A stretch of 28,625 nucleotides of DNA, from positions 1 to 28,625 of IMG/VR virus record IMGVR_UViG_3300048026_000186. The stretch is one strand, 5' to 3'. Each line of letters opens with the position of its first letter. Within the stretch, counting starts at the first letter, position 1. Made by a program: the position numbers and the translations under genes. The stretch is from a virus. This document shows positions 1 to 16,223 of this stretch, in pieces. The notes under the pieces were generated by a model. It was given only the letters and a program-made list of their open reading frames with translations, was not told the origin of the DNA and ran no database searches.

Positions 1-132
1 ACCACGATCTACAATCACTTCGGAAGATTGGAGTCCACCCTGACCATAGTGACCCTGATAGGTCTTATCTATGTAGGCTTTGAACTCCTCTAATAGTTCA
101 TCTTCCCTAAACTTGTAGTCTGGTTTGGGCAT
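1..132 (-). CDS. Small conserved phage protein, 3' part cut by window edge
   Basis: Only the first 44 codons are present; the reading frame runs off the left edge without a stop. The ATG (132-130) overlaps the TAA of the cobS-type gene upstream as TAATG, so the two are probably translationally coupled. The visible peptide starts MPKPDYKFREDEL and contains YQGHYGQGGLQSSEVIVD. This resembles the start of small phage proteins of the DUF3310/SaV-like kind, which carry a short HY-x-Q motif followed by a helical region, but the diagnostic C-terminal part lies outside the window. The family assignment is an inference from a short stretch. No catalytic motif can be judged. Confidence 0.55.
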   Translation of the reverse strand, partial: MPKPDYKFREDELLEEFKAYIDKTYQGHYGQGGLQSSEVIVDRG

Positions 133-1343
133 TAAAAGTCCTCCGATGAATCAGTAGTCTCAACTTCTTCAGTGGTTTCCATACTCACACCGGCATCTAC
201 TTTGGTGTAGAGGTCAATGAAAGCAGACTTGGTGTCCACATCAAATCTGTTGACGCATAACTGAATGGCTTTGAGTCTATCATCGAACATTGCAAAGGCT
301 TTCACAATGTGTTCTAGCCTTCTAGTTGAGATCAATTCATCAATCGCACCGTCATAGAAAGTCTTTCTGATAACGTCAGCCCAAGTAACTAACTTGTCGG
401 CAAATTCATCATCAACACAACCTTGAACAGCCATTTTGTTGAGAACAATCTTTTTCTCTTGAGCCGCTGAAGGGTATTCTTGCTCGACAGTAATAGCAAA
501 ACGCTCAAGGAATGCTTCATCAAGAACTTGGGCACCCATAAACTTGCCATCATCAGAGCCTCGACCCTTAGTGTTAGCAGTAGCAATAACATTGAAACCA
601 GCTTTAGGTGCAATCACCTCACCAGTTTTCTTATTGAAGTATGGTTTGCCTTCAAGTATCGCTTGCAGACACATCAACTTATTAGAGCCTCTATCAATTT
701 CATCTAGAATGAGGATCGCACCGCGCTTCATAGCAGTCAGTACAGGACCTTCACGATAGACCACATTGCCATCGACCAGTGTATTACCACCAATCAGATC
801 ATCTTCATCAGTTTCGATGGAGATATTGACTCGGATCGCTTCTTTTTTAAGTTTGGCACATACTTGCTCAACCATCATAGTCTTACCGTTACCGGATAGA
901 CCGCAGATAAAAGTTGGGTAGAACACACCAGATTTTACAATGCTGGATAAATCTTTGTAGAATCCAAAAGGAACGTAAGTGGAATCTTTTTCGGGAATAA
1001 GATTCTCAATCTCAATTGATAATTTAGCTTGGGTCAAAACTTTACTCTCCGGAGCCTTAGTCTCAATTACTGCAACCGGGGGTGCAGACTGTGGGACAAT
1101 CTGAGCAACCGGACCGTTATCACCAAAAGTATATTTACCTCGTGATACGGCATAATTCTCCACGATGTAACCGAGAGCAGAACCTTGCTTGGAAATTCCA
1201 AGTTGATCTGCAATCTGGTTCAAATCACTTCGGGTAAAAACACCACTAGGATTGTCAGTTTGTTGAAGCGCGGAGATAATTGATCCGACTTCTTGTTCTT
1301 GTTTGTCATTAGCAAACATTTGGGTAGTTAGTTGATTCATCAT
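132..1343 (-). CDS. cobS: CobS/MoxR-type AAA+ ATPase
   Basis: AAA+ ATPase of 403 residues in the CobS/MoxR group. Visible motifs are Walker A GLSGNGKT (residues 148-155), Walker B ILILDEID (about 210-216), sensor-1 asparagine in TANTKG (N257) and an arginine-finger candidate in LERF (R281). Residues 36-73 look like a winged-helix segment, and a proline-rich linker (about 78-100) joins it to the ATPase. In bacteria CobS works with CobT in the aerobic cobaltochelatase (CobNST) that inserts cobalt during B12 synthesis; CobS-like genes are known in marine T4-like phages. The next gene upstream is a VWA protein, the usual partner of MoxR-type ATPases, so the two probably form a complex. The substrate is unknown: no CobN is present. 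The start follows a GAGAGAGG ribosome site and a near-perfect sigma70 promoter. Confidence 0.85.
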   Translation of the reverse strand: MMNQLTTQMFANDKQEQEVGSIISALQQTDNPSGVFTRSDLNQIADQLGISKQGSALGYIVENYAVSRGKYTFGDNGPVAQIVPQSAPPVAVIETKAPESKVLTQAKLSIEIENLIPEKDSTYVPFGFYKDLSSIVKSGVFYPTFICGLSGNGKTMMVEQVCAKLKKEAIRVNISIETDEDDLIGGNTLVDGNVVYREGPVLTAMKRGAILILDEIDRGSNKLMCLQAILEGKPYFNKKTGEVIAPKAGFNVIATANTKGRGSDDGKFMGAQVLDEAFLERFAITVEQEYPSAAQEKKIVLNKMAVQGCVDDEFADKLVTWADVIRKTFYDGAIDELISTRRLEHIVKAFAMFDDRLKAIQLCVNRFDVDTKSAFIDLYTKVDAGVSMETTEEVETTDSSEDF

Positions 1344-1384
1344 AATAGACCTCTCTCAAAAGGGTTAACTCAATTTATACATAC

Positions 1385-1413
1385 ATTATAGCTGGAGCCA
1401 AGGCATATGTCAA
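1385..1413 (-). promoter_or_regulatory. Consensus sigma70 promoter of the cobS-type gene
   Basis: On the minus strand, TTGACA (1413-1408) and TATAAT (1390-1385) are separated by exactly 17 bases, a full consensus match. The expected start site lies near 1378, followed by a leader of about 35 bases that ends in GAGAGAGG before the ATG. Host polymerase should read it early in infection. A TATAAATT string (1379-1372), one base off the late box, lies just downstream. Confidence 0.85.
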
Positions 1414-1447
1414 CCTTTTTCTTCAATTATTTTTGGCTCCAAGCTAT
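1388..1447. repeat. Inverted repeat spanning the cobS promoter
   Basis: The left arm ATAGCTGGAGCCAA (1388-1401) is the reverse complement of the right arm TTGGCTCCAAGCTAT (1433-1447), apart from one extra base. The arms lie either side of the -35 box, and the left arm covers the spacer and part of the -10 box. This geometry fits a protein-bound operator, or a hairpin in transcripts reading through from upstream. No regulator is known. Confidence 0.6.
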
Positions 1448-1452
1448 TGATT

Positions 1453-3777
1453 TCACGCAACTTTCTCAATGAAGCGATTTAAAAACACTCGGCTTGATGA
1501 TTTATTCATGGCAAACTTCTTAAAACCACGTCTTAGATCACCCTTACTGGTAGATTTGACCTCAAGTTCAGTCTCTTCAACATCCAGACCTTTACCACCT
1601 TTAATAAGATAGAGCGCATCATACGCAGTGGCATTTGGTACTTCAATAAATCTATCTGGAGCCCAGGTCTTTTTGGCTTTGTCAAATGCATTCCAATCAT
1701 AATCTTCAATCGCATTCATGAATTGATCACGGGCTTTCTTTACAGATGGCTCGACCAATCTGAAGCCAATCATTCTAGAGCCGGTAGTGGCTTGATAGTG
1801 TTTCATCATTGCATTCGAAAAGTTATTGTATCGAGGAGCAGAGTCACCGTAACCACGATTACTCTTAATTGCAGTAGTAATAGGACCTTCTTTGATGAAG
1901 ACATCGGAAAACTTTTTGCCGTAGTATCTTTCTGGACTAGCATAACTGTTACCATCATCAAACTCTTTTATTTCACCAATCGTTTCCAATGTAGTGGAGT
2001 TATCACCGTCAGTAAGAATAATAGTATTCAATACTTCAAGAGATTTTGATTCTTTGAACTCAATTGCAATGTCACGGAGAATCATAATACCCTCAGCAAG
2101 AGGAGTCATACCCAAGTTTAAGTGTCTAGGAGCACAACTTCTGTCCATCTCGACCACATTATCAAAGTCATTATTTCTGTAGTAATTGCCAAACACCGTA
2201 GCGTAACCCAGAAGTTTTTTGAAAACTTTTGTATACTGTGCGGCACCGAGATCGGAAGTAATTAATTCTACCAAACCGACTTGAACATCATCCCAGTGAA
2301 TGTCACCAACTTTAGGATCTCTGATCAAATCTGACCATCTAGTATTGTAACTATTTGCACAACTACTGAACCCATAAACTTTGAATGGAATATTTACTTT
2401 TTTACAGAAAGCAATTTGTATCATCAATTGTTCTAGGGTTGATTTCATTTGTTGGTACATTGACCCAGACATATCTAACAACATTAGCATACCGTGATTT
2501 TGTCCATCAGGCACAGTGGTCGATGATAAGAATAAATCGTCAGTCAGTTTGTATGCCCACAATTTATCTTCATTCAACTTACCAGTACTATTGATACGCT
2601 GTTTTTTAATCGCGGTAGCTTTTCTTTTCATTTCGAATTGCTGAACCAACTGATTAATAGTTGTCTTATGTTTTGTTTGGAATCTTTTCAGAAGAATATT
2701 TTCTGCTTCTGCCGGGGTATACTTTGGACCACCATACTCATTGTAAGTGGTCTCAAAGTCCCACACTTCAGCACAAGGCATAACTAATTTTTTAGTGATC
2801 AGTTTAGGCCATGTCACGTTAAGAGTTTCAAGACCATCAGTTTTAATTAGTTCTTGTTCTCTCGCACGGAAATTCGTATCGGTCATTGCTTCAGGCTCTA
2901 ATGAACCATCGCTAGAACCTTTCATGATATTGCCGTCGGAAGTTTTTTCAGTAGAAGTTTCATCAGTTTCTTCAGATTCTTCAGACTCTTCACCAGTGGT
3001 AGCATTAGAAGTATCAGTCTCTTCAGAAGATTCACCATCTTCATCGGCATCACCAGATTCATCAGAAGACTCACCGTCTTCACCGGCATCAGATTCTTCA
3101 GCAGTTTCTGGATCATCCCAAGGCTCGCTAACATCATCAGAATATCCGTCATCAGAATATTCAGCATCATCAGTATCATCACCAAAAAGATCATCTTCTG
3201 GTTGCATTTGATTCTGCATTGCTTCTTCAGATTTAGAATGTTCAAAGAGCGAGTTGGCTAGTTCAACAACTTCATCCCAAGTATTACATTTAGCAACTGC
3301 ATCTACAAAAGGCATTTCTTCAGCACTAAAAGGAACAGCCAACATTGAGCCGCCCTTGAAGTGAAGGTTGATTCTATCGATAAGAGGAAGGTCAGAGATT
3401 TCTGTATTCTTCAATCCGAAGAAATCTTTCTTCAGAAGAATATCATAACCCTTAGCAAAAGACTTTACTATACCAGGGTAACGTAACTTGATTAGTTTCT
3501 CAATACGTGCATCTTCAATGACATTGAGGAATGATTTGAAACCACCGCCTCGATTACAAGTGGCAGTATGCCAACCTTCGGGCGGAGTTTCTAGACCGTG
3601 ACTGACTTCATGACCAATGAATAGATCATAAAGTTCTGGAGCCATCTCGACCCATCTGGGTAAGATAACTTTACGTGCTTTCAAATCGAAAGCCGCAGTA
3701 GAAACATTTTGATGCTCTACTGACAGATTCTCAGTGGCTAGTAATTTAGCCAAATTTGATTTCTGATTAATTTCCAT
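1453..3777 (-). CDS. cobT: CobT-like VWA protein with HExxH metallopeptidase-like N-terminus
   Basis: Protein of 774 residues. The ATG at 3777 is preferred over an upstream TTG (3783) because it sits about 6 bases after the GAGAGAGG ribosome site. Three parts are visible. Residues 56-60 are HEVSH, an HExxH zinc site, followed about 30 residues later by NVIEDARIE, which could supply the third (glutamate) ligand of a gluzincin. Residues about 185-280 are a low-complexity Ser/Asp/Glu linker. The C-terminal half is a von Willebrand A domain with MIDAS motif DMSGS (435-439), a later GMTPL threonine and TDGDN. CobT, the VWA subunit of cobaltochelatase, pairs with CobS. MoxR-linked VWA proteins with putative peptidase domains are an equally good match. 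The cobS-type gene follows directly, but each gene has its own promoter. Chelatase and peptidase roles are both open. Confidence 0.8.
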   Translation of the reverse strand: MEINQKSNLAKLLATENLSVEHQNVSTAAFDLKARKVILPRWVEMAPELYDLFIGHEVSHGLETPPEGWHTATCNRGGGFKSFLNVIEDARIEKLIKLRYPGIVKSFAKGYDILLKKDFFGLKNTEISDLPLIDRINLHFKGGSMLAVPFSAEEMPFVDAVAKCNTWDEVVELANSLFEHSKSEEAMQNQMQPEDDLFGDDTDDAEYSDDGYSDDVSEPWDDPETAEESDAGEDGESSDESGDADEDGESSEETDTSNATTGEESEESEETDETSTEKTSDGNIMKGSSDGSLEPEAMTDTNFRAREQELIKTDGLETLNVTWPKLITKKLVMPCAEVWDFETTYNEYGGPKYTPAEAENILLKRFQTKHKTTINQLVQQFEMKRKATAIKKQRINSTGKLNEDKLWAYKLTDDLFLSSTTVPDGQNHGMLMLLDMSGSMYQQMKSTLEQLMIQIAFCKKVNIPFKVYGFSSCANSYNTRWSDLIRDPKVGDIHWDDVQVGLVELITSDLGAAQYTKVFKKLLGYATVFGNYYRNNDFDNVVEMDRSCAPRHLNLGMTPLAEGIMILRDIAIEFKESKSLEVLNTIILTDGDNSTTLETIGEIKEFDDGNSYASPERYYGKKFSDVFIKEGPITTAIKSNRGYGDSAPRYNNFSNAMMKHYQATTGSRMIGFRLVEPSVKKARDQFMNAIEDYDWNAFDKAKKTWAPDRFIEVPNATAYDALYLIKGGKGLDVEETELEVKSTSKGDLRRGFKKFAMNKSSSRVFLNRFIEKVA

Positions 3778-3803
3778 AAACAACCTCTCTCATTTATATA
3801 TAC

Positions 3804-3832
3804 ATTATGACAGGTGTTAAGGTAAAAGTCAA
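3804..3832 (-). promoter_or_regulatory. Sigma70-type promoter of the CobT-like gene
   Basis: TTGACT (3832-3827) and CATAAT (3809-3804) are separated by 17 bases on the minus strand. The flanks match the cobS promoter: AAAAAGGTTGAC upstream and ATAATGTAT plus TATAAAT downstream, then the same GAGAGAGG ribosome site. The -35 and -10 boxes are each one base from consensus. Early transcription by host polymerase is likely. Confidence 0.75.
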
Positions 3833-3878
3833 CCTTTTTCTTTGGTTCTAAGTCATTGATATATAAGAGGTTGTTAAA

Positions 3879-4505
3879 TTATTTTGATTTAGGTCCTTTT
3901 TTACGAGTGGTTTTTGGTGTTGGAACAGGCTTTTCTGCTTCTTTTTTCTTCTTATCAAGGTAATCTCCTCGCTTGTTCAACCGGATGACTACTTCATCTG
4001 GTTTGATCCACATATCAACACCTGATATTATATCATCAATTTCCTTCTTTGTAAAGAACCCTGCATATACATCATGCATCAATTCAGAAATCCAATCTGC
4101 ATCATGAGTTACCTGAGAAATCATTTCTGATCCCTTGCCCCATGATCCACCAGAGTATGTGTGGACCATAAACTGGCTATGATCAGAGACTTCACAAATA
4201 TCTCCACATAAAAAAATCATAGTGGCGGCTGATAGACAGGCACCCTCAATCGATGTTACTAATGTGGCTTCTGTTTCTCTCATGGCTCTCATCATTTGAA
4301 CTGCTGTATTGATCTGCCCACCATGAGAGTTGATATGAACATATATTACATCGTTTGGTCCTGCGCGCCTGAACAATTGATTCCACTCAATGTACTTGTC
4401 AGGACTTTCTATAGTATCATGGAGATACAAGTCATATGTTTTTGCGATTGATCTTTCAAAAACATTTGTGTTTAAATTTAAATCTTCAAGTTTAAAACTA
4501 TTCAT
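3879..4505 (-). CDS. ClpP-like serine protease
   Basis: Protein of 208 residues of the ClpP/crotonase fold. The INSHGG motif (58-63) corresponds to INSPGG of ClpP, EGACLSAATMIFLCG (87-101) carries the nucleophile Ser92 at the position of the ClpP serine, and FMVHTYSGG (112-120) carries His115. Asp164 in SGVDMWIKPDE is the likely third triad member. The length matches ClpP (about 195-210 residues). The lysine-rich C-terminus (after about 183) is not typical of ClpP. The phage prohead protease gp21 is encoded separately at 17533-18186, so this is an accessory protease. It may join host Clp ATPases or act alone; the sequence does not decide. The start is 8 bases inside the 3' end of the preceding gene, so coupling is likely. 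Confidence 0.85.
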   Translation of the reverse strand: MNSFKLEDLNLNTNVFERSIAKTYDLYLHDTIESPDKYIEWNQLFRRAGPNDVIYVHINSHGGQINTAVQMMRAMRETEATLVTSIEGACLSAATMIFLCGDICEVSDHSQFMVHTYSGGSWGKGSEMISQVTHDADWISELMHDVYAGFFTKKEIDDIISGVDMWIKPDEVVIRLNKRGDYLDKKKKEAEKPVPTPKTTRKKGPKSK

Positions 4506-4860
4506 AAAATTGAGTTACCGCCTTAATTTTCTCTATTTGTTTATCGATGATTGCAGTCCTATTTGGCCAGTGAATATATTCCTTTTCTGGATTTTTCTTT
4601 AGATTCTGCAAAAGTGGCATTATCATATCTTCTAGAGTTTTTAATTTTTGCTGAACATCGCCAGCTACTAAATCTTTGTGTTCACTTATTAGTGTACTGT
4701 TGTCCATTGAAATTAATTTTGCTTCAATGTCGTACAATTTTTCCATAACAGAGTCCATTGCTTCGGCTGGGAGTTCTGCTCTTACTGGTGCTGTTGGTGT
4801 TGTTCCAGTAGGTGCTTCATCTACCGCAGTAAATCCAAAATCGTATGTGTTATCTGTCAT
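4498..4860 (-). CDS. Conserved T4-like phage protein of unknown function
   Basis: Protein of 120 residues. The first 35 are Ala/Thr/Pro-rich and probably disordered. The rest is helical, with a conserved-looking stretch LLQNLKKNPEKEYIHWPNR (about 84-102) and a C-terminal helix IDKQIEKIKAV. I have the impression that this WPNR-containing block recurs in other T4-like phages, but I cannot verify that here, and no enzymatic motif is visible. It overlaps the deformylase gene upstream by 11 bases and the ClpP-like gene downstream by 8 bases, so all three are probably one operon. An AAGGA ribosome site precedes the ATG. Function unknown. Confidence 0.7.
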   Translation of the reverse strand: MTDNTYDFGFTAVDEAPTGTTPTAPVRAELPAEAMDSVMEKLYDIEAKLISMDNSTLISEHKDLVAGDVQQKLKTLEDMIMPLLQNLKKNPEKEYIHWPNRTAIIDKQIEKIKAVTQFYE

Positions 4861-5380
4861 TTTCCTTTTTCCTTCTATTAAACCTTTTTACTTTTTTATC
4901 TAACGATTTTATTGCCCTGTTTAATTTTAACTTAGATGCTCTACTAGTAAAGTTAAGTCCCAACATATGATCATACTCATGTAGTGCAACTCTTGCGGCT
5001 AAACCTAAAAAAGTTTCAGTAGTTTCTTTGTTATTTAAATCAAAATATTTTATAGTACATTCTGTAGGTCGAGAAATGTGAAGTCTAAATCCCGGCATAC
5101 TTAAACACCCTTCTTCTGCTAGACTTGTTTCATCATTCACACCTATTAACAGTGGATTAAAAAGAGTACGATTAAATTCTTCTCCTGTATTGGGATTCTT
5201 TACGCCCATACAAAATACTCTTTTGTCTTCGCCAACTTGATTCGCAGACAACCCAATGCCTTTTAACTCAATCATCTTTTTCATAAGATCGGTTGCAAAT
5301 TCTTTTGCGTTATCATTTTCAAAGTCAAATACTTCTGGCTGTTTTTTCAGAAGTGGATTATCTAATGCTACTAATTCCAT
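4850..5380 (-). CDS. def: Peptide deformylase
   Basis: Protein of 176 residues with all three deformylase motifs: GIGLSANQVG (41-50, Gln48), EGCLSMPG (90-97, metal ligand Cys92) and HEYDH (134-138, ligands His134 and His138, catalytic Glu135). Deformylase removes the formyl group from the first methionine of new proteins, using an Fe(II)-type metal centre. Length is close to bacterial enzymes, and the C-terminal helix is kept, although it ends in a very basic tail (KKVKRFNRRKK). Deformylases are known in marine phages, where they are thought to keep host or phage proteins maturing during infection. The gene starts directly after gene 46 (stop at 5381) and overlaps the next gene, so it is in the same operon. 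Confidence 0.95.
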   Translation of the reverse strand: MELVALDNPLLKKQPEVFDFENDNAKEFATDLMKKMIELKGIGLSANQVGEDKRVFCMGVKNPNTGEEFNRTLFNPLLIGVNDETSLAEEGCLSMPGFRLHISRPTECTIKYFDLNNKETTETFLGLAARVALHEYDHMLGLNFTSRASKLKLNRAIKSLDKKVKRFNRRKKENDR

Positions 5381-13415: not shown

Positions 13416-13727
13416 TTAAACACTAAACTGAATACTTTCACCGCAACCACATGAACTTGCTTCATTTGGATTTGTGATCTGTATTTCAGAACCAGTCATA
13501 CTGGTAACAAAATTAATTATAGAACCTGACATAATATCTGTACATACATCATCTACTACAATGATGTTATCTACAAGTGTGCCATTAGAATCATCTTCTG
13601 TGTAGTCCCATGTGTAAGCAAATCCAGCACAACCACCACCTTTAAGAGATAGTCGCACATACTTTTGTCCCGAAGACTCTAATAGTTCGGTCCAGTATTT
13701 CTTTGCATCTGCTGAAATTTTTATCAT
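13416..13727 (-). CDS. iscA: IscA/HesB-type Fe-S carrier protein
   Basis: A-type carrier of 103 residues (bacterial IscA has about 107). The three cysteines of the family are present: Cys33 in GGGCAGFAY, and Cys93 and Cys95 in SSCGCGE near the C-terminus. These proteins bind iron or an Fe-S cluster and pass it to target proteins. The gene shares a cassette with iscU. It has no recognisable ribosome site; instead a TATAAATA late box ends 5 bases before the ATG, so a transcript from that box would start at or next to the A of the ATG and be leaderless. Otherwise it would need re-initiation after the SGNH-like gene, whose stop is 4 bases upstream. Confidence 0.92.
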   Translation of the reverse strand: MIKISADAKKYWTELLESSGQKYVRLSLKGGGCAGFAYTWDYTEDDSNGTLVDNIIVVDDVCTDIMSGSIINFVTSMTGSEIQITNPNEASSCGCGESIQFSV

Positions 13728-13731
13728 ACTA

Positions 13732-14475
13732 CTATTTATACACCCATTCTGTTCTCAAATCTATAGGTTCTTTTGTGCGAATATTTCGTACAACTTTATT
13801 TCCTAGTATTTTATTGTTTCTTGGAGTAAGATGATTTGCGTGTTTAGAATCTTGGTCCCAACATTCTTTGATTTCATACCAGTACCTACCTTTTAAATCA
13901 AACATAGCTTCCATCTGTCTTTTTGTAACTCCTGACAGACCAGCGTTACTAGAACCCTGGTTTTCTCCACAAGTTGCTATTTCAATATGTTCTTTATCTT
14001 TTCTGTTTATGTAGTCATCACCACCTATAGGTAATACAATTATTGTTACATTTTTTGTTATTGCATCATATTGTAAAGCGTTTAAGAAAACGTTCATCGT
14101 GGCACTATGTGCATCCGGATTGTACATATCTCCTAGAAAAAACTCTTGGGGCTTGAATTCTGCACCCGTCTGAGGTTTTCCATTTTTTGCAGGTGTTATT
14201 TGATGAGCAGTCATAAATCTTGGCTGGTTATATATTGTAGGATCTCTTAAAAATATTCTTTCCATGGCTGTAAGACTCATAAGAACAATATCATTTGCTT
14301 CAAGGTGCGCTCTCTGTTTTTCATATGTGTAGTAAAGATAATCTAAACTAGAAGCAGGAACTGCAAAATTTATAAACTTATATTTAGGAAATTCTTCTGC
14401 AACCCACAGAGTCCAAGATTTTGCGTTATCATAATCTGCGGCATAACTATCACCAAATATCATTATTTTAGGCAT
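13732..14475 (-). CDS. SGNH/GDSL-hydrolase-like protein between iscU and iscA
   Basis: Protein of 247 residues from the ATG at 14475, which overlaps the end of iscU and follows an AAGGA ribosome site; the frame stays open upstream inside iscU but has no supported start there. Block I is IMIFGDSYA near the N-terminus, with serine as the likely nucleophile. The segment HANHLTPRNN near residue 215 can supply the block-V histidine. Substrate unknown; marine phages carry many such proteins. Its place inside the Fe-S cassette is odd, because SGNH enzymes have no known part in cluster assembly. It is a second SGNH-like gene in this window and shares little visible sequence with the one at 7048-7788. 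Confidence 0.7.
   Translation of the reverse strand: MPKIMIFGDSYAADYDNAKSWTLWVAEEFPKYKFINFAVPASSLDYLYYTYEKQRAHLEANDIVLMSLTAMERIFLRDPTIYNQPRFMTAHQITPAKNGKPQTGAEFKPQEFFLGDMYNPDAHSATMNVFLNALQYDAITKNVTIIVLPIGGDDYINRKDKEHIEIATCGENQGSSNAGLSGVTKRQMEAMFDLKGRYWYEIKECWDQDSKHANHLTPRNNKILGNKVVRNIRTKEPIDLRTEWVYK
13733..13740 (-). promoter_or_regulatory. T4-type late promoter overlapping the SGNH gene end, directly before iscA
   Basis: Exact TATAAATA on the minus strand, in the run TATAAATAGTAGTATG that ends with the iscA start codon. The same 14 bases TATAAATAGTAGTA are found at the iscU late promoter. The box doubles as the last codons (Tyr-Lys-stop) of the SGNH-like gene. With usual T4 spacing, +1 falls on the A of the ATG. 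Confidence 0.75.
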
Positions 14476-14845
14476 ATTTTTCCTTGTAGTCTTCAATGGC
14501 AGCCTTAATAGCATCTTCTGCTAGTACACTGCAATGTATTTTTACAGGTGGAAGTGCCAGTTCTTCAGCAAGTTCTGTATTCTTTATTGTACTTGCCTCG
14601 TGTAACGACATACCCTTTACCCACTCTGTTAGTAATGAACTGGAAGCGATTGCAGAACCACAACCATATGTTTTAAATTTTGCATCTGTGATCACATCAT
14701 CTTCGACTTTAATCTGTAGTCTCATAACGTCTCCACACGCAGGTGCACCTACCATACCTGTGCCAATACCATCTGTGTCTGGGTCCCATTTGCCTACGTT
14801 GCGAGGATTTTCGTAGTGATCTATAACTTTATCGCTATATGCCAC
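14468..14845 (-). CDS. iscU: IscU-type Fe-S cluster scaffold protein
   Basis: Scaffold protein of 125 residues (bacterial IscU has about 128). The GTG start at 14845 is chosen because the product then begins at the standard IscU N-terminus (xAYSDKVIDHYENPRNVG) and an AGGAG site lies about 8 bases upstream; the longer open frame runs back through the terminator into gene 23. Cluster ligands Cys37, Asp39, Cys62 and Cys105 are all present, as is LPPVK (98-102), the motif bound by the HscA chaperone. IscU builds Fe-S clusters on sulfur from IscS; no IscS gene is here, so host IscS and HscA/HscB would be needed. It has its own late promoter and lies behind the terminator of gene 23. Confidence 0.95.
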   Translation of the reverse strand: MAYSDKVIDHYENPRNVGKWDPDTDGIGTGMVGAPACGDVMRLQIKVEDDVITDAKFKTYGCGSAIASSSLLTEWVKGMSLHEASTIKNTELAEELALPPVKIHCSVLAEDAIKAAIEDYKEKYA

Positions 14846-14877
14846 TTCAGTATCTCCTGTACTGTTAGAAGTACTAC

Positions 14878-14885
14878 TATTTATA
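14878..14885 (-). promoter_or_regulatory. T4-type late promoter before iscU
   Basis: Exact TATAAATA on the minus strand followed by GTAGTA, between the gene 23 terminator and iscU. Predicted start near 14872 gives a leader of about 27 bases with an AGGAG ribosome site before the GTG. Confidence 0.88.
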
Positions 14886-14890
14886 CGCAC

Positions 14891-14915
14891 AAAAAAAGGG
14901 AGCCGAAGCTCCCTT
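14891..14915 (-). terminator. Intrinsic terminator after major capsid gene 23
   Basis: Minus-strand transcript forms a perfect 8-base-pair stem AAGGGAGC / GCTCCCTT around a TTCG tetraloop, followed by a run of T (A-tract 14891-14897 on the plus strand). It lies 31 bases past the gene 23 stop and immediately before the iscU late promoter, so it separates capsid transcription from the Fe-S cassette. Confidence 0.93.
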
Positions 14916-14945
14916 AAAAGTGTCTCTAATGAGATTCTTTTTATA

Positions 14946-16223
14946 TTACATAAGGTTAGTAACTTTAGACAGTCTGTAGTACTGGTTACGGTCAGCAGTA
15001 AATGTTGCACCGTCAGTAGTACCGTTAGCTTGAGTCACGTATGGGTTTGCAATCATGCCATATCGTGTCTTGAAGCCAATCTTAGGCTGGAAGTTACCTG
15101 GGTCAATCGCTCTAACCATTTGCAGAGGTACGTATGGGCAGTAGAAGATACCAGCATCATATGCGCTAGATCCTTTATAACCAACTACGTAGAACTGTGA
15201 AGCGGCTCCAGTATTTGCTGAATATGGATCAACATATACTTTGTAACGACCGTTAAGAACACCAGCAAATGTGTTGCCAGTATCGTCAACGTTAAGTGGA
15301 CCACCACCTTGTAGTGCTGAACCAGTATCAAGAACACCAGCCATTGAGAGTGCAGCCGCAACATCAGCAGATGTGATGATGAAGTTACCTTTCCCTCTAC
15401 GTGTGTCTTGCGCGATTACGTTAGCATCTCTTTCAATGTTGAAGAGAAGACCTTTGAATCGCTCAACTGACCATCTGCCATTTGAATCAACGTCAAGGTC
15501 GAAAGTACCGGCTGTTGCAGTAGATGCAGAACCAGGCTTAGCGACTTTGTAGATTGTTCTAATAACTTCACGGTTAATTTCAGCAAGAATTTCTTGTGAA
15601 AGAATGTTTGACAACTCACCTTCAGCGTCCAAACCATGGATAGCTTTAAGGTCTTGAGCCAATTCTACTGTGTACTCAGCTTTCAGTGCGCGAGTCTTCG
15701 CAGTAACGGTTGTTTTCTCGATTGAGAAAGCCATTTCATTGAAGTCTGTTCCACCTGAATCACCAAGTGCTTCAGCAGTATTAGTAGCAATGCCAGTACC
15801 TGTAGTAAAAGTACCGTCAACTGGGTTTGAGCCAGCATGAGTACCAGTACCAGAAAAGTCTGTGTCTGCTTCGTTGAATAAAGCCTCTGTACCAGTTTGA
15901 TTGGTAAAGTGTGACTTCATTGCAAAGATAAGACCAGTAGGTCCAGTCATTGGTTGAACACCAGCTACATCATAAGCCATAAGATTAGGCAATGCCCGTC
16001 TTACAAGACTAATGAGAATTGGGTCGTAGTTGTCGATTCCGCCACCAGTATTACTATTGACAGCGACTTCGTTAAGAGCAAGGCGTTCTTCACGACAAGC
16101 CTTCTCTTGGTTTTCAAGAATAACAGCGGTAACTGCTTTCTTGTATGGGTCTTTGATTTCGCCAAGAGCTTCGTGGTCCAGAACTGGAGCCCACTTCTCT
16201 TGAATTTGTTCAGAAAGATACAT
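14946..16223 (-). CDS. 23: gp23 major capsid protein
   Basis: Protein of 425 residues with the gp23 pattern: an N-terminal charged segment, then NYDPILISLVRRALPNLMAYDV (about 65-86) and PMTGPTGLIFAMKSHF (about 91-106), both typical of T4-like capsid proteins. It is shorter than T4 gp23 (521). gp23 is trimmed at its N-terminus by prohead protease gp21, whose sites have the form (L/I)xE; LNE at residues 50-52 is a plausible cut site, leaving VAVNSNTGG as the mature start. It has its own late promoter (16257-16264), an AGGAG ribosome site, and a strong terminator behind it, as suits the most abundant protein of the particle. Confidence 0.95.
   Translation of the reverse strand: MYLSEQIQEKWAPVLDHEALGEIKDPYKKAVTAVILENQEKACREERLALNEVAVNSNTGGGIDNYDPILISLVRRALPNLMAYDVAGVQPMTGPTGLIFAMKSHFTNQTGTEALFNEADTDFSGTGTHAGSNPVDGTFTTGTGIATNTAEALGDSGGTDFNEMAFSIEKTTVTAKTRALKAEYTVELAQDLKAIHGLDAEGELSNILSQEILAEINREVIRTIYKVAKPGSASTATAGTFDLDVDSNGRWSVERFKGLLFNIERDANVIAQDTRRGKGNFIITSADVAAALSMAGVLDTGSALQGGGPLNVDDTGNTFAGVLNGRYKVYVDPYSANTGAASQFYVVGYKGSSAYDAGIFYCPYVPLQMVRAIDPGNFQPKIGFKTRYGMIANPYVTQANGTTDGATFTADRNQYYRLSKVTNLM

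Follow-up and report, generated by a model that had tools for sequence, protein, structure and literature searches.

A zincin-type site conserved in a phage VWA protein with a MoxR-like ATPase partner and lacking from cellular CobT

The DNA considered here is the IMG/VR virus record IMGVR_UViG_3300048026_000186 from position 1 to 28,625 (28.6 kb, hereafter the window), and our subject is a pair of neighbouring genes in it, one encoding a CobS/MoxR-like AAA+ ATPase and the other a larger protein with a VWA domain (Table 1). The N-terminal domain of this VWA protein carries an HExxH motif followed by a glutamate motif, and the comparisons below support a site of zincin type that strong purifying selection maintains. 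Considering that cellular CobT has a homologous domain devoid of HExxH, we read the two as one domain whose active site apparently persists in the majority of viruses and has disappeared from cellular CobT.

The conservation of the site was assessed on 112 near-complete relatives from the fetched loci, reduced to 88 non-redundant proteins (<90% mutual identity; median pairwise identity 32%). The patterns with which nearly all of these loci were searched excluded the HExxH/Glu motif, and only the scan of the genome collection employed EDxRxE. Residues H56, E57, H60, N85, E88, D89 and R91 are invariant in all 88, and so is the complete metal-ion-dependent adhesion site (MIDAS) of the VWA domain, with its DxSxS, T and D (D435, S437, S439, T558 and D590). 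An earlier note, made from the bare sequence, had placed the three motifs at exactly the right residues and had called the MIDAS intact, as it is; it had also named the loss of the site residues in close homologues as one observation that would count against it, and every one of these residues is retained. The codons of the invariant site residues differ synonymously among the relatives, so that the invariance reflects selection rather than recent common descent. A single copy of the motif would by itself be weak evidence, since HExxH turns up in 1.2% of shuffled versions of the protein.

The order of secondary-structure elements in the N-domain is also consistent with a zinc site of the gluzincin type. 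AlphaFold2 places the HExxH on a helix (residues 47-63) and the Glu motif on another (78-99), preceded by a helix and three strands; the confidence is about 91-93 in the surroundings of either motif and below 50 in the linker (189-290). A helix, three strands, an HExxH helix and a Glu helix, in that order, are what is expected of a small gluzincin, and H56, H60 and E88 are the putative ligands that would meet at the metal. The gluzincin-type arrangement proposed in the earlier note thus stands as regards the conserved HExxH, the downstream Glu and the predicted helices that fit them, while the meeting of the ligands in space is putative. The presumed general base, E57, is retained as well, and would be unneeded for mere metal binding. 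A Foldseek search of the PDB was dominated by matches of VWA type, to phage and CobT models alike, and so left the zincin fold undecided; sequence searches of solved structures with full-length and N-domain profiles returned nothing meaningful. The acidic linker is present and rich in D, E, S and T, at about 100 residues slightly longer than the 95 previously estimated.

The association with the ATPase is equally constant. In all 80 loci in which it could be tested the ATPase gene lies near the VWA gene: in 78 it follows on the same strand, and in two it is nearby on the opposite strand. Seven loci in which the contig ends too early are left out of this count, and no locus contradicts it. The ATPase gives an AAA_5-type match and both of its Walker motifs are intact, in agreement with the MoxR-type assignment made previously. 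In a fold search with the VWA domain, the NorD VWA domain bound to NorQ and the MIDAS domain of midasin were among the best PDB matches.

The two proteins belong to known phage families. Full-length profile matches assign them to phrog_459, labelled "peptidase" (E 8e-177), and phrog_249, labelled "porphyrin biosynthesis"/CobS (E 8e-115). A total of 463 phage records, almost all from marine T4-like cyanophages and pelagiphages, contain relatives, which are mostly annotated as "peptidase", so that the earlier statement that the pair would normally be annotated cobS and cobT was half right. Identity of the window protein with named phages is about 30-37%, and its next relatives are contigs of uncultured phages, up to 100% identical. 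The window itself has T4-like capsid and tail genes together with gp46/47-like, UvsW, UvsY and late sigma genes; its capsid protein is nearest to that of the Methylophilales phage Melnitz (69%), then to those of Pelagibacter phages (66%). The source of the pair is a marine T4-like phage. The VWA protein has no Pfam match, the CobT families PF06213 and PF11775 included. It scores 20.4 bits with the CobT model TIGR01651 (cut-off 759), and the ATPase 82 bits with the CobS model TIGR01650 (cut-off 558.55). The profile searches that the earlier note had called for thus matched neither CobT nor DUF2201 above cut-off, and DUF2201 (PF13203), without any match, is ruled out as home family of the VWA protein. 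A search of plasmids with the VWA protein gave no match either. Two further candidates were rejected: an antiphage-defence origin of the pair, for which PADLOC gave no convincing match, and kinship with the MoxR-like genes of the Herelleviridae (phage K, P100), where those neighbours that were read have neither HExxH nor VWA.

None of the 35 cellular CobT proteins examined has an HExxH. In 27 of them, from the class of genome G001, the corresponding position has the pattern A/S-hydrophobic-A/S-L-R/K, save for rare exceptions among which HExxH never occurs, while the EQARxE helix is retained in these same proteins; eight more, mostly divergent, are likewise devoid of HExxH. The cellular N-domain motif RGxADAxALRLRHHD does not occur in the phage protein, which has HExxH. 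Direct comparison of the phage-family and CobT profiles was no more than suggestive (E 1e-4, probability 55%), and weaker for the N-domain alone. The homology of the two N-domains is settled, however, by a bridge through the SSU5/ICP2 group of viral proteins: its profile matches cellular CobT along most of its length (E 8e-57) and the window family in the N-domain (E 2e-24), with HExxH falling on HExxH and EDxxIE on EDARIE. The HHDxxxH of CobT was rejected as the counterpart of HExxH, which aligns with the AxALR just before it. The predicted CobT N-domain has, with high confidence, the same order of helices and strands as that of the phage. Since the domains are homologous and cellular CobT has no HExxH, the latter looks like a decatalysed form. 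One could go further and suggest, tentatively and with somewhat more doubt than conviction, that the CobT N-domain is a decatalysed zinc peptidase and that CobS-CobT descends from an AAA+/VWA/metalloprotease machine whose active site has stayed intact chiefly among the viruses of bacteria and archaea; there the machine would act as a phage-encoded ATP-dependent protease in genome replication or takeover. In the literature searched we found no account of a site intact across most viral CobT families yet absent from cellular CobT.

With respect to cellular genomes, 41 of 58 in the class of a Rhodobacteraceae genome (from G001-G062) have CobT, and 20 of these 41 gave no CobN match, some of them perhaps being incomplete; in the Caulobacter vibrioides control, too, CobT is present and CobN was not matched. 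It is possible that CobST in cells does more than act as a cobaltochelatase.

Other viral "CobT" proteins were collected as neighbours of ATPase genes in unrelated phages. Their HExxH is kept in SSU5 (Salmonella), Cyrano (Escherichia), RHph_Y2_17_1 (Rhizobium), CRP-810 (Roseobacter), ICP2 (Vibrio), T5S1, TIN2 (Tsukamurella), four Gordonia phages, halovirus HCTV-5, one faecal phage and XG4. It is usually followed by a downstream xxED, at a spacing from HExxH to ED of about 70 residues in three of the Gordonia phages and TIN2. Those tested with profiles fall into PHROGs 1576, 17276, 5298 and 23795, XG4 falls into 459, and one matches none. In HCTV-5 a gene annotated as SprT-like (L160, 2471-3133) lies near the VWA/ATPase pair.

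These observations taken together favour an ATP-driven machine: an invariant site and MIDAS, a constant ATPase partner, the NorD-NorQ match, the wide occurrence of HExxH in viruses, its absence from the homologous domain of cellular CobT and the proximity of a DNA polymerase gene. We consider it probable, with a fair margin of doubt, that the pair is a remodelling machine of MoxR-VWA type to which a zinc peptidase is tethered, serving replication or host takeover. The CobS-like protein, a MoxR-class AAA+ ATPase, would be its motor, on which the VWA protein would dock through its C-terminal VWA/MIDAS domain; the flexible acidic tether would bear the N-terminal peptidase, presumably binding zinc in gluzincin fashion through HExxH and the downstream Glu. 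ATP-driven remodelling may then open a target to cutting by the peptidase on its tether. The targets are likely to be proteins of phage genome replication or host takeover, not of vitamin B12 synthesis, and the machine would act at these stages.

Several observations weigh against such a machine. Searched for itself, the N-domain gave no significant match in Pfam or the PDB, apart from a single SprT-like hit (E = 7e-4) in one of 45 family members. HExxH is lost in the distant relatives from Pseudomonas phage nickie (SEISK) and Stenotrophomonas phage BUCTxx99 (REVST), and in the ICP2 homologue (L156, 2976-4718) the HExxH is kept with VVDHNIE in place of xxEDxxxE, the Asp of which is possibly the third ligand; catalysis would thus seem dispensable in some lineages. 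Finally, the link to replication is one of proximity only and statistically weak. A DNA polymerase gene lies no more than about 13 kb from the pair in all 13 phages where it was located (within 2.4 kb in four), and the combined Fisher P of 7e-4 over these 13 non-independent phages becomes about 0.03 with one phage per lineage. The coordinates of two metagenomic records are about 2 kb off, which leaves the result on position unchanged. The two HExxH-less viral relatives (L163, 2510-4594; L165, 2346-4331) retain the VWA domain, the MIDAS and the ATPase neighbour and, as natural site-less versions of the system, are of use in comparisons.

The published readings of such pairs conflict. Liu 2021 considered phage CobST "mistakenly annotated as a peptidase" and had it join host CobN in a cobaltochelatase that raises the cobalamin supply (PMC8651126). 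The domain order does parallel that of CobT (N-domain, acidic linker, VWA), the N-domains are truly homologous through the bridging viral proteins, and cyanophages count the pair among their core genes, CobN-type proteins being present in their hosts. Nevertheless, we regard this explanation as very improbable, given the model scores far below cut-off, the missing Pfam CobT match and the intact HExxH that all cellular CobT examined lack. Moreover, CobN was not found in ten phage records carrying the pair, in line with the earlier remark that none is present, and 219 of 5,426 E. coli genomes carry a relative of the VWA gene on a plasmid replicon, of the SSU5-like phage-plasmid kind, while the E. 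coli control genome has no CobN match; phages without CobN and related genes in a host without it argue against cobaltochelatase as a general role. About half of the sampled CobT-bearing cellular genomes lack a CobN match as well. The earlier suggestion of a function other than cobaltochelatase is supported by these results. Iyer 2021, for the group 2.2 jumbo phages, described a MoxR ATPase whose vWA cochaperone bears a fused metallopeptidase at its N-terminus, and proposed a role in virion assembly (PMC7824862). Our tests favour a reading of this latter kind. The gene pair, the "peptidase" label and, for jumbo phages, the metallopeptidase-vWA-MoxR idea are all already known, so that the corresponding alternative to B12 raised in the earlier note is supported without being new.

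As for the function in virion assembly itself, a chaperone with peptidolytic processing of structural proteins, the architecture is the same, and the Acidianus two-tailed virus requires a MoxR-vWA system to assemble its tails (cited in PMC7824862). It seems unlikely here all the same. In Melnitz, for all the similarity of its capsid protein and gene order, the pair is present neither at the syntenic site, which lies between deformylase and Hsp20 (L180, 27864-30469), nor elsewhere at tblastn sensitivity; the locus is therefore a site of gain and loss among related phages, and since Melnitz assembles, capsid assembly in this group is independent of the pair. The pair is also nearer to the DNA polymerase than to the terminase gene in all nine phages with both located, and both of its genes are preceded by sigma-70-like promoters, recognised by consensus only. 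There is a third possibility, an activase like NorQD or CbbQO, in which the N-domain would bind a metal or metalloprotein without cutting it and the machine would insert or remodel a metal cofactor. The NorD-NorQ match, the NifU-like and HesB-like iron-sulfur proteins encoded in the window and the loss of HExxH in some distant relatives would suit such a role, but E57, required for hydrolysis and not for metal binding, is invariant, and we hold it to be decidedly unlikely.

If the pair is an ATP-dependent protease, the consequences reach beyond this window. Abundant marine T4-like phages have the pair among their core genes, and it is routinely listed with the auxiliary metabolic genes for B12; cobS was a core gene in the 2010 comparison of T4-like cyanophages (PMC3037559) and serves as a community marker (PMC9983427). 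In hundreds of genomes the ecological reading in terms of B12 would then be mistaken. From the comparison there also follows a proposal, open to test, on where the large N-domain of CobT, the motor subunit of the chelatase, came from.

Table 1. Coordinates of the gene pair and its features in the window.
Feature	Position	Strand	Basis
Metallopeptidase-like/VWA protein (P0001, 774 aa, ATG at 3777; phrog_459 "peptidase")	1453..3777	-	Open reading frame and profile match
N-terminal zincin-like domain, residues 1-185 (helix, three strands, HExxH helix, Glu helix, more helices)	3223..3777	-	AlphaFold2 and conservation
HEVSH (HExxH), residues 56-60	3598..3612	-	Invariant in 88/88
NVIEDARIE, residues 85-93, putative third-ligand helix	3499..3525	-	N85, E88, D89, R91 invariant
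Acidic linker, predicted disordered, residues 189-290	2908..3213	-	Sequence and AlphaFold2
VWA region, about residues 425-726	1600..2505	-	AlphaFold2; PDB matches to NorD VWA with NorQ
MIDAS DMSGS, residues 435-439	2461..2475	-	D435, S437, S439 invariant
Further MIDAS residues, T558 and D590	2104-2106; 2008-2010	-	Conservation
CobS/MoxR-like AAA+ ATPase (P0002, 403 aa; phrog_249)	132..1343	-	Open reading frame and profile match
Walker A GLSGNGKT, ATPase residues 148-155	879..902	-	
Walker B ILILDE, ATPase residues 210-215	699..716	-	
Sigma-70-like promoter TTGACT-17-CATAAT, upstream of VWA gene	3804..3832	-	Consensus match only
Sigma-70-like promoter TTGACA-17-TATAAT (12/12), upstream of ATPase gene	1385..1413	-	Consensus match only

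The two promoters sit in 51-nt segments (1373-1423 and 3792-3842) that are 80% identical to each other. Directly upstream of the pair are genes for a ClpP-like protease and a peptide deformylase (3879-4505 and 4850-5380); of 65 relatives, 10 have a ClpP-like gene close to the pair and 29 a deformylase gene. Beside the capsid gene is some unusual cargo, a NifU-like iron-sulfur scaffold (14468-15010, E 2e-51) and, near the same gene, a weak HesB/IscA-like match (13416-13727).

Among known systems, the MoxR ATPase and vWA-metallopeptidase of the jumbo phages, compared through their published description (example ASV44728/ASV44729; PMC7824862), share architecture and partner with the window pair and differ in that the genome position here favours replication over assembly. 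The phrog_459/phrog_249 families match the window pair over the full length, and the gene order in HTVC008M is the same. With NorQ-NorD and midasin the likeness lies in the VWA-MIDAS domain, and no zincin domain is known in NorD or midasin. The CobT/CobS of Alphaproteobacteria, finally, resemble the window proteins in their homologous N-domain and its secondary-structure order, in the acidic linker, in the VWA domain and in the AAA+ partner; the difference lies in the distance of the window proteins from the CobT and CobS models and in the site itself, which reads A/S-x-A/S-L-R/K in cellular CobT and HExxH in the phage.

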